This document shows positions 4,269 to 6,560 of a stretch of DNA of 64,000 nucleotides, piece by piece. The notes under the pieces are model-generated. The model saw nothing but the letters and a program-made list of their open reading frames with translations. It ran no database searches and was not told the origin of the DNA. Origin of the DNA: Bradyrhizobium erythrophlei. GTDB lineage: Bacteria; Pseudomonadota; Alphaproteobacteria; Rhizobiales; Xanthobacteraceae. The position numbers were made by a program, and so were the translations under genes. The number at the start of each line of letters is the position of its first letter. The stretch's first letter is position 1. The DNA is taken from positions 744,001 to 808,000 of the forward strand of contig NZ_LT670849.1 in assembly GCF_900142985.1 (NCBI RefSeq), given 5' to 3'.

Positions 4269-4523
4269 CTAAATTGAATCCGGCAGTGTCCTAATTCGCT
4301 TTTTGGCGAACCGAGCCATCAGAAGAGACGCCCCAGTCACGGCCAACATCAAGATCAGGATGGCAATCACGCTTAGATCGCGGTCGGCTAGCTCTCTACT
4401 ATAGAGGACGTACACCCAAACCAGGGAGCTCGCGACACCCAAGCCGAAACAGGTGAGAGCCAGAACCAACACCGATCGCCAGCGAAGGCTTTCTGTCATT
4501 CGGTAGCGAAGGATTGCTTTCAT
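4269..4523 (-). CDS. Small hypothetical membrane protein (two TM helices)
   Basis: An 84-residue protein with two hydrophobic helices, SVLVLALTCFGLGVASSLVW and an ILILMLAVTGASLLMA stretch, separated by a short charged loop (YSRELADRD) and followed by a basic tail (RFAKKRIRT). The start at 4523 is set by a strong GGAGGGAGAG ribosome-binding site directly upstream; an alternative start five codons earlier lies within this site. Function unknown. The gene lies just outside the left end of the IS110-family element, so its upstream region borders an insertion. Confidence 0.55.
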   Translation of the reverse strand: MKAILRYRMTESLRWRSVLVLALTCFGLGVASSLVWVYVLYSRELADRDLSVIAILILMLAVTGASLLMARFAKKRIRTLPDSI

Positions 4524-4656
4524 CTCTCCCTCCGGCAAGGCCGCCTCAGTTGGCGGTCTCTTTCATAACATTCCAAGCGTGTAGTGTCTTCCATTGGCAC
4601 CTTTCGGACATGGAGTGATGACCGACTTAAGTCCGTTGTACGCACCTAAGATGGGG

Positions 4657-4666
4657 TTATCGGCCG
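4657..4666 (+). repeat. Left subterminal inverted repeat of the IS110/IS1111 element
   Basis: TTATCGGCCG here matches the reverse complement of 6070-6079 (TAATCGGCCG) at 9 of 10 positions. It lies about 104 bp before the transposase start. Confidence 0.65.
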
Positions 4667-4769
4667 GCCCAGCTTGTGGATAGCTGAAGATTTTGGGTGC
4701 TGCGCTTCAGGCTGATGGTGAAACGAGGTCCGTGGTAACGGCCTCAAGCATCAGAAGGAGAAGCGCAGC

Positions 4770-5801
4770 ATGGACCATTTTGCTGGATTGGACGTATCGG
4801 TCAAGGAGACAAGTGTCTGCATTGTGGATGACACGGGCAGGATCGCGAAGGAATTAAGGGTAGCAAGCGAGCCAGACGCTCTGCTGCGGGTTCTGGGGAA
4901 CCCGGCCTACCGTTTCAAGCGGATCGGATTGGAGGCTGGGCCGCTGTCGCAATGGCTTTTCGGTGCGCTTGCCGAAGCAGGCTTGCCTGTCATCTGTGTC
5001 GAGACGCGGCACATGCGGGCGGTTCTGAAGGCGCAGATCAACAAGACGGATCGCAACGATGCGCGCGGTATGGCCCAGATGATGCGGGCGGGGCTTTATC
5101 GCCCGGTGCATGTGAAGACGCTACGCAGTCAGAAACTGCGAATGCTGTTGACCCATCGCAAACTGCTGCAGTCCAAGGCCATCGCCATCGATAACGACCT
5201 GCGAGGTACTTTGCGCAACTTCGGCCTCAAGGTGGGCGTGGTAGGAACGATGAAGTTCGAGGCGCGCATCAAGGAGCTTGTCGAAAGCTTCCCGGATCTT
5301 GCTGAGTTAGTCGAACCGCTGCTGATTGTCCGGCGGACGCTTCGTGAGCAGATCGGCATTCTTCATCGTCACTTGCTGGCTATCGTTCGGAATGATGATG
5401 TGTGTCGGCGCCTGATGACCATCCCGGGTGTTGGTCCCGTTGTGGCACTGACCTATCGCGCAACTGTCGACGTGCCCGCCCGCTTCCGAAACTCCAAGGC
5501 GGTCGGGGCGGTGTTTGGGCTCACGCCTTCCAGGTATCAATCTGGCGAGATTGACCGACCCGGCGCCATATCAAGGTGCGGTGACGAGATGATGCGGGCA
5601 ATGCTCTACGAAGCGGCTCATATCATGCTGGTGCGTTTGGCAAAGTGGTCCTGGCTCAAGGCCTGGGCCATGAAGATCGCCAGGCACCGCGGGATGAAGA
5701 AGGCGATCGTGGCGCTGGCGCGCCGGTTGGCGGTGATCATGCACCGCATCTGGGTTGACGGTACCGAGTTCCGATGGAGCCGGGAAGTTACAGCGGCGTG
5801 A
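4770..5801 (+). CDS. IS110-family transposase (DEDD recombinase)
   Basis: A full-length 343-residue IS110 transposase. The N-terminal RuvC-like domain has the DEDD set: Asp8 (GLDVS), Glu55 (GLEAG), Asp94 and Asp97 (KTDRNDARG). The C-terminal Transposase_20 domain has IPGVGP (218-223) and FGLTPSRYQSG...GAISRCGDEMMR, where Ser268 is the expected catalytic serine. GAAGGAGAAG lies 5 nt before the ATG. Such enzymes act with a guide RNA encoded in the element's own non-coding DNA; in the IS1111 group it comes from the 3' tail, and a candidate follows here. No frameshift or stop is seen, so the protein should be active. Confidence 0.95.
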   Translation: MDHFAGLDVSVKETSVCIVDDTGRIAKELRVASEPDALLRVLGNPAYRFKRIGLEAGPLSQWLFGALAEAGLPVICVETRHMRAVLKAQINKTDRNDARGMAQMMRAGLYRPVHVKTLRSQKLRMLLTHRKLLQSKAIAIDNDLRGTLRNFGLKVGVVGTMKFEARIKELVESFPDLAELVEPLLIVRRTLREQIGILHRHLLAIVRNDDVCRRLMTIPGVGPVVALTYRATVDVPARFRNSKAVGAVFGLTPSRYQSGEIDRPGAISRCGDEMMRAMLYEAAHIMLVRLAKWSWLKAWAMKIARHRGMKKAIVALARRLAVIMHRIWVDGTEFRWSREVTAA

Positions 5802-6082
5802 GGACTAGCAGGATTAAACGCGATAGGAGGACACTCGAGTTCCACCGAGCGGTGGAATGATGTCCCTCACGGGACGATGGATGAGGTGAGTTCGTATGTC
5901 CGCTTGGACCCACTGTCTGTAAGACGGCAAGGCCGCCCCAAAGATTGTTCCGCCTCGTCTTCGAATCCCATACTGGAAGGGCCTTGGTGCCGATTCCGAA
6001 GAGAAGCACGAGCCCGTGGGCGACACCAACACCGCAAACATGGATAGTCTGAAAGTGCTTGACCCCTAACGGCCGATTAGAG
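5802..6082 (+). ncRNA. Candidate guide (seek/bridge) RNA in the 3' tail of the IS110 element
   Basis: This 280-bp non-coding tail has two adjacent perfect hairpins: TTCCACC/GGTGGAA at 5840-5857 and GTCCC/GGGAC at 5862-5875. Next comes ATGTCCGCTT at 5896-5905, the exact reverse complement of AAGCGGACAT at 6083-6092, which is the first sequence outside the predicted right end. A target-guide segment of an IS1111-group RNA should pair with the target in just this way. The exact 5' and 3' ends of the RNA cannot be set from sequence, and I found no convincing guide for the left flank. Confidence 0.45.
6070..6079 (+). repeat. Right subterminal inverted repeat of the IS110/IS1111 element
   Basis: CGGCCGATTA is the inverted partner of the left repeat at 4657-4666 with one mismatch. 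The flank beginning about 3 bp further on starts with the AAGCGGACAT motif complementary to the tail RNA candidate. Confidence 0.65.
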
Positions 6083-6109
6083 AAGCGGACATCAGATTTA
6101 TCGATTCAC

Positions 6110-6560
6110 GCACAAGGTCACCGTCGTCGGGCATACGGGAGCGTATCGCGATCGTCACGAACGTTGGGTGCGGGATGCGATGGACGCGTTGACGGCGCAA
6201 GACGCGAGCGGTCGAAGCGACCGGCGAAGTCGTGTGGTCCTGGCGCCCCGACGCTGGCGCTAACTCGGTGACGATTGCTTAGCAATCGCACCGGGGATGG
6301 TGACAACAAGCCCGGTTCACCAGGGAGAGCACGAAGGAAACCGTTAAAACCATTGCGCAGGGAAGGCCGGGCGTTTCCGGCGAACCTGTGGTGACTTACT
6401 CGTGTGCTTTTTTATTTCGCACGCGAGGCTGCGGGTGCGCTTGGGCATCCGGCCTTCCCTGCGCCCTCTTGTCGAGAGGGTTTTCGTTCAAACCTCGGGC
6501 GCCATCGCGTCGCGAGACTGCGCTTTGCTGTGCCTGGCTCTTTGACATGTGAATAGGATA
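6110..6560 (+). repeat. Structured intergenic repeat (Bradyrhizobium-type), possible non-coding RNA
   Basis: This stretch has no credible coding frame but is rich in secondary structure. There is a small hairpin at 6272-6288 (GATTGC/GCAATC) and a perfect 16-bp long-range stem between 6355-6370 and 6449-6464. Inside that lies a 9-bp stem at 6399-6427 with a T-rich loop, and then a CCCTCT/AGAGGG hairpin before TTTT. I recognise near-identical blocks from many intergenic sites in Bradyrhizobium genomes (memory, unverified). The nested stems suggest a transcribed RNA or a mobile repeat. Which genes, if any, it serves is unknown; it lies downstream of the minus-strand MFS gene. Confidence 0.6.
6464..6484 (+). 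terminator. Weak rho-independent terminator-like hairpin at the end of the structured repeat
   Basis: A 6-bp CCCTCT/AGAGGG stem with a five-base loop is followed by TTTT. It directly follows the 16-bp long-range stem and would end a plus-strand transcript of the repeat. The stem is short and the U-tract is only four bases, so it may be inefficient. Confidence 0.4.

Follow-up and report, generated by a model that had tools for sequence, protein, structure and literature searches.

An IS1111-Group Insertion Sequence of Bradyrhizobium erythrophlei with a Predicted seekRNA Carrying Guides for Both Halves of Its Target

The Element and Its Parts

We analyzed a stretch of 64,000 nucleotides from Bradyrhizobium erythrophlei (hereafter the window; contig NZ_LT670849.1 of assembly GCF_900142985.1, positions 744,001 to 808,000), which contains an insertion sequence (IS) of the IS1111 group at 4650–6082, spanning 1,433 bp between flanking AA dinucleotides. 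We hold with high confidence that the noncoding region downstream of its transposase gene encodes a predicted seekRNA with two target guides, termed T and B. In the IS1111 family, an RNA that derives from the noncoding region and is bound by the transposase is required for movement, a circular intermediate with a junction promoter is formed, and the right subterminal inverted repeat lies about 3 bp from the end. The group has been defined by a DEDD transposase of 330–350 aa with both Pfam domains and the motif GL-P----S(T)G, and its left subterminal repeat was placed about 7 bp from the end (PMC11187229).

All features given here lie on the plus strand. The transposase gene (4770–5801) encodes 343 aa with the domains DEDD_Tnp_IS110 and Transposase_20 (PF01548 and PF02371), and the motif GLTPSRYQSG was found by eye; the DEDD assignment was taken from these domain matches as a whole. 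The subterminal inverted repeats TTATCGGCCG (4657–4666) and CGGCCGATTA (6070–6079), which a preliminary description made from the sequence had pointed out, are present and complementary at 9 of 10 positions. They lie about 7 bp from the left end and 3 bp from the right end, a spacing that is not unique because the AA is duplicated. The noncoding region is longer downstream of the gene (281 nt) than upstream (120 nt). Within its last part, TTGACC (6059–6064) may serve as the -35 box of a promoter formed when the ends are joined; TTGAC was present 5' of the right repeat in 41 of the 43 right ends found, at equal distance in 37.

The predicted seekRNA, or bridge-type RNA, extends over 5826–6009 as delimited by the match of our covariance model R1. 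It begins with two perfect hairpins (5840–5857 and 5862–5875), both already recognized in the preliminary description, followed by a long helix (5880–5894 with 5946–5959) that closes the target loop (5880–5959 in all) around an inner hairpin at about 5913–5927. The T guide TATGTCCGCTT (5895–5905) is the complement of the right flank's top strand, and the letters of the B guide CCCCAAAGAT (5936–5945) are those of the left flank and the first bases of the element. Farther 3' are a candidate left-end guide (5964–5972), the last conserved hairpin (5975–5997), and a candidate right-end guide (6000–6007). The target itself consists of a left half with the core, CACCTAAG (4643–4650), defined by empty sites and with its AAG seen again at 6083–6085, and a right half, AAGCGGACAT (6083–6092). 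Guides for both target strands are found with T 5' of B and with the RNA downstream of the gene; the IS110-type arrangement has the RNA upstream and B 5' of T.

Copies in the Host Genome and the Match to the Right Flank

The preliminary description had claimed that the right flank at 6083–6092 is the exact reverse complement of 5896–5905 and that such a match is improbable by chance, and both points were borne out. When random 10-mers were drawn from the window, with draws inside the element skipped, the reverse complement was present in the 281-nt tail for 39 of 200,000; AAGCGGACAT occurs three times in the window when both strands are counted, whereas 100 dinucleotide shuffles gave an expectation of 0.12. 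The same match stands at 7 of the 12 right ends in the host genome, and relatives show such a match in other letters. A chance origin of the 10-nt match has a negligible probability in our judgment; nothing in its favor was found, and it is refuted because guides and flanks covary, as described below.

A DNA search of the host genome (7.53 Mb, one contig) returned 14 matches, which resolve into eight end-to-end copies, of which one has lost 10 nt; one split copy; and fragments. Nine copies have identical ends and different flanks. The 12 right ends all lie on one side of the motif, at a constant site and in constant orientation, and adjoin AAGCGGACAT (seven), AAGCAGACAT (two), AATTCGGACAT (two), or AAGTGGCCAT (one), which amounts to 7 of 12 exact and 9 of 12 within one base. 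The nine left flanks are mutually different, yet all end in AA ahead of GATGGGG, and 46 of the 63 positions compared (seven each, counted by eye) agree with the B guide; outside the motif, flanks vary among copies. The guide could be read in 11 copies, as TATGTCCGCTT in nine and TGTGTCCGCTT in two (L020 and L023). Because nearly the same guide is present in all of them, the host-genome copies alone cannot tell cause from coincidence.

The copies L020 and L023 have different left flanks, and both are located at AATTCGGACAT (the motif plus one base) with the variant guide TGTGTCCGCTT; the change in the guide does not match the change in their flanks. L023 is the split copy, and its 1,226-bp insertion (L023:1570-2795, between 6758423 and 6759650) falls precisely within the guide loop and separates T from B. 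The insertion, which is presumably IS30-like, codes for a protein of 388 aa that has HTH_38 and rve domains.

Empty Sites, the Core, and the Nature of the Target

The 57 bp to the left of the window copy (4593–4649) belong to a repeat with matches in many genomes of the genus. This repeat reaches the insertion point, and at 10 places retrieved from other members of the genus it stands without the element. The empty sites L147, L148, and L151 read CGCACC-AAA-GCGG, two bases less than a direct join of the window flanks. A further empty site, CTGGCACAAAGCGGACAT in L251, was the sole match among 117 genomes and is the counterpart of the L021 copy. As these empty sites show, 1,435 bp were added, with AG (equally AA) at both sides, and since AG/AA stands at both sides, the exact end base is ambiguous by 2–3 bp. 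The right end that had been predicted near 6082 is a fair placement. Where the left flank of a relative ends in TAG, CAG, or GAG, AG alone is common to both sides, and for this reason we named AG the core; judged from sequence, the core in L210, L211, and L217 would be AC. Junctions were fixed by empty sites for host-genome copies (the window copy and L021), and ends of relatives were placed from their sequences.

The suggestion that the flank motif belongs to a scattered intergenic repeat, with repeat targeting as its consequence, held in part. Genome-wide, AAGCGGACAT occurs 41 times, compared with 9 for the reversed control, and the left 57 bp do lie in a repeat that is found empty; on the other hand, 16 of the 41 occurrences are the guides and right flanks of the element's own copies, and repeat targeting proved weaker than claimed. 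A palindrome was considered as the target and rejected, with a clear upstream arm (8–10 of 12) in just three of nine joined sites (L015, L018, and L021); in the remaining six, the upstream arm scored 6–7 of 12, which by our estimate is near chance. Among 40 genomes of the genus, 7 contain the exact palindrome TGTCCGCTT-N4-20-AAGCGGACA, and the host genome lacks it. A short linear motif describes the behavior of the target and is the simpler reading.

Covariation of the Target Guides with Flanking DNA

Relatives were drawn from named genomes, further sampled genomes, and plasmids. The named loci with the closest transposases came from metagenome bins (labeled Enhydrobacter, Hyphomicrobiales, and others), Bradyrhizobium, Pseudolabrys, and Afipia, in a search that may omit the host's own or a very near genome. 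In the main anchor test, with anchors placed within the RNA, guides were obtained from 82 of 115 loci; because both strands were scanned, its 107 rows may include spurious ones, and its clusters include just one host-genome row. For the T guide, 48 rows with a right flank formed 20 clusters, whose guides differ from one another by more than two bases. With shifts of up to two bases permitted, guides matched their own right flank at 9.05 of 11 positions and swapped flanks at 4.86, a difference reached in 0 of 100,000 permutations, and the own flank was strictly best in 16 of 20 clusters. Leaving out the three bases nearest the element gave 6.60 versus 3.26 of 8 (0/100,000).

The covariance model gave 108 matches (67 and 41), of which 49 were excluded before the count (46 without a usable right end or flank and 3 repeating earlier RNAs); the resulting 59 rows in 32 clusters scored 8.84 versus 4.74 of 11 (0/100,000). 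The six T clusters found through the RNA model alone scored 9.17 versus 5.13 (132/100,000). Examples of such guide–flank pairs are TCGACCTGCTT adjoining AAGCAGGTCGA (L091), CGAGTCCGCTT adjoining AAGCGGACTCG (L104), CACAAAGGG adjoining CCCTTTGTG (L109), and GGATGCGCTT adjoining AAGCGCATCC (L242).

The left side behaved likewise. In 15 clusters of the anchor test, with a row of score 1 (L208) retained, the B guide (5936–5945) matched its own left flank at 4.73 of 7 positions and swapped flanks at 1.86 (0/100,000), the own flank being strictly best in 13 of 15. The RNA letters ahead of AGATTGTTCC repeat the left flank, as in CCGCAGAGAT (L089), CGATTAGAT (L117), and GCGACAGAT (L235). Two earlier tests were replaced. 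A one-pass anchor search with indels, covering 47 of the 115 loci and superseded by the 82-locus test, gave 8.75 versus 4.96 of 11 for T (eight clusters; 4/100,000) and 6.25 versus 2.98 of 8 for B (eight clusters; 1/100,000). The first RNA-model locus test, in which the right-end pattern was overly narrow and misplaced by one base, yielded three new guides at 8.67 versus 4.67 (16,675/100,000; too few guides) and gave way to the 32-cluster test.

Covariation bears on the alternative in which the motif is preferred by the transposase without any guide, or recombination spread the copies, and the tail match is a functionless fragment captured from the flank. The host-genome copies, carrying nearly one guide, would fit this account; the relatives do not, as their guides vary in step with the flanks on both sides, and the guides are positioned within the loop of a conserved fold, while the flanks of the copies diverge outside the motif. 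We regard this alternative as very improbable.

The Conserved Fold

The RNA alignment underlying R1 comprises 23 relatives, the window copy among them, and gives a fold in which two hairpins are followed by a long helix that encloses an inner hairpin and then by a final hairpin, with T at the 5' side and B at the 3' side of the internal loop. The fold is conserved through compensatory changes, 18 of 42 pairs being changed at both sides. Paired cells amounted to 94.5%, compared with 35–51% when partners were slid by 1–3 columns, a comparison that favors the unslid fold because the structure was derived from these same sequences. The 182-bit match of the window tail to R1 is likewise by construction, the tail being among the model's 23 sequences. 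R1 also detected the RNA in the distant relatives L208, L211, and L212 (E = 1e-22, 7.5e-20, and 7.5e-16), whose transposases are 57, 48, and 52% identical, respectively.

Guide–flank covariation, the tail fold, and an empty-site allele had all been named beforehand as tests of the seekRNA reading, and taken together their outcome supports it. Directly, this reading is carried by the anatomy, the repeated insertion at the motif, the empty sites, the two-sided guide–flank covariation, and the conserved fold. Several results weigh against it. Five of the 12 right flanks in the host genome are inexact, three of these being off by more than one base, and two (L020 and L023) carry one additional base. 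A fixed register lowers the T scores to 6.30 versus 3.86 (still 0/100,000), with the own flank strictly best in 8 of 20 clusters; the guide of L238 misfits its right flank (4 of 11); and the window tail folded alone is not more stable than shuffles (z -0.47).

As we picture the mechanism, T (5895–5905) would pair in the right half of the target, with its top strand, and B (5936–5945) in the left half, with the bottom strand; together the two guides, held in one internal loop, would place the element in one orientation near CCCCAAGCGGACAT and join it at the AG core. We infer that the RNA is transcribed, that the transposase binds it, that a circular intermediate is formed, and that pairing is the cause of target choice. 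The predicted circle junction reads GATTAGAGA-AG-ATGGGGTTAT.

Possible Recognition of the Element's Own Ends

The preliminary description had dealt with the right-flank guide; the left-flank B guide, the core dinucleotide, and a probable end-recognizing part of the RNA are additions to it. Located 3' of the target loop, AATCCCATA is a near-complement of the left end GATGGGGTT, and AGAGAAGC is identical to the right end plus core (6079–6086). The 3' part probably also pairs with the joined ends of the element. Covariation of these letters with the ends was examined in three ways: a first test, a fixed-offset window, and model columns, the last being used because the fixed-offset window misplaces the guide in L220, L224, and L269. 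Ends were placed by the inverted repeats, misplaced repeats (e.g., L219 and L292) were kept in the counts, and taking one element per end type provided a partial control for common ancestry.

For the right end, model columns gave 6.69 of 7 with the own end and 6.10 with swapped ends in 42 distinct elements (0/100,000), and 7/100,000 with one element for each of nine end types. Restricting the latter to repeats of at least 8 gave 38/100,000 (eight types), and to repeats of at least 9, 1,701/100,000 (five types); the corresponding values were 227/100,000 in the first test (seven types) and 157/100,000 with the fixed-offset window (eight types). The same change appears in the RNA and the right end as ACAGAAG in L132, L212, and L215, AGAGAAC in L211, and AGACAAC in L269; L269, obtained via the RNA model, has AGACAACC in both places.

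For the left end, model columns gave 14/100,000 (42 elements) and 827/100,000 (18 types), rising to 3,847 and, with one per end type, 8,068/100,000 for repeats of at least 9. The first test gave 191 and 893/100,000, and the fixed-offset window was not significant (6,785 and 38,431/100,000). The best cases are L245 (left end GATAGGA, RNA ATCCTAT), L224, and L269; running counter to a left-end guide, the left ends of L087, L116, and L242 are changed without a change in the RNA. The Microvirga VF16 plasmid copies L114 and L115, included in the first test and excluded from the other two, have CCCCATG as their left end, in the place ahead of the inverted repeat that GATGGGG occupies in relatives.

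This end covariation, clear at the right and weak at the left, suggests a four-guide, bridge-type RNA. We lean toward the view that the long RNA in this lineage is a complete bridge RNA, in which two target guides would be joined by a 3' part that guides recognition of both ends, with the core (AG; AC in the L210/L211/L217 clade) read by both halves. A competing view, to which we assign a smaller yet substantial probability, is that the RNA guides serve the target alone and the ends are read by the protein via the inverted repeats, the 3' likeness reflecting shared ancestry or another cause. It accords with the report that a short seekRNA with target guides sufficed for ISEc11 (PMC11187229) and with the weak left-end covariation, which fails to reach significance with the fixed window and, per end type, with repeats of at least 9. 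It is countered by the right-end covariation, both across the 42 elements and across the nine end types, and by L269 with its shared letters. If the bridge-type view is true, the long seekRNA, whose role was described as unestablished in the 2024 paper (PMC11187229), would gain a definite job, and IS1111 and IS110 would be united under one four-guide mechanism despite their reversed guide order.

Relation to Known Elements

The mechanism is already published, and the finding is right. The present element resembles the IS1111 seekRNA elements ISEc11, ISPa11, ISKpn4, and ISPst6, as they are described in PMC11187229, in having the RNA downstream of the transposase gene with T 5' of B, overlapping target matches, subterminal inverted repeats, orientation-specific insertion, and naturally redirected relatives; of these, ISPa11 targets a REP sequence (PMC11187229). 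It differs from them in its target (the AAGCGGACAT side), in a fold and guides of another lineage, and in the AG core at both sides, where that paper reports no added bases; moreover, its RNA and movement are predicted from the sequence. Compared with IS621, an IS110-group element with a bridge RNA (PMC11208160), the RNA is downstream, the guide order is reversed, and the subterminal repeats are long; donor guides, part of the IS621-type bridge RNA, would here be the candidate end guides. The same paper predicted bridge RNAs in 93.0% of IS1111 elements and, in a manual look at six IS110/IS1111 elements, noted potential donor-binding letters in the multiloop in many IS1111 (PMC11208160).

Among the titles and abstract openings covered (preprints not included, subscription papers sparsely), no description of this element or of the end test was found. 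What is new is a lineage in which both target guides are documented and the junction is resolved, together with suggestive evidence that the RNA also reads the ends of the element. In this naturally reprogrammed lineage (32 guide clusters), target guides can be read and checked against flanks, and the covariation evidence bears on end recognition by IS1111 elements and points to the specific letters that a test could alter. Interest in elements of this type lies in their use as tools for RNA-programmable DNA insertion.

Distribution and Surrounding Repeats

No Rfam family matched window positions 4500–6300 at E up to 1. Sampling of the host's family detected the predicted RNA in 57 of 248 genomes, and sampling of the class in 14 of 337, the host genome being counted in both. 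Second, weaker RNA-model matches in the same locus (L117:836-999, E = 5.5e-5; L220:1070-1261, E = 1.4e-6) may be remnants of other such elements nearby.

Positions 6138–6522, to the right of the element, belong to a repeat found very widely across the genus. This right-hand repeat gave just a sub-threshold miRNA match in Rfam (25 bits; gathering threshold 124), and the 518-bp query had matches in 192 of 195 genomes, the best being mostly over 6138–6522 with 70–83% identity. To the left of the element, a further short repeat at 4537–4566 is matched in many genomes of the genus.
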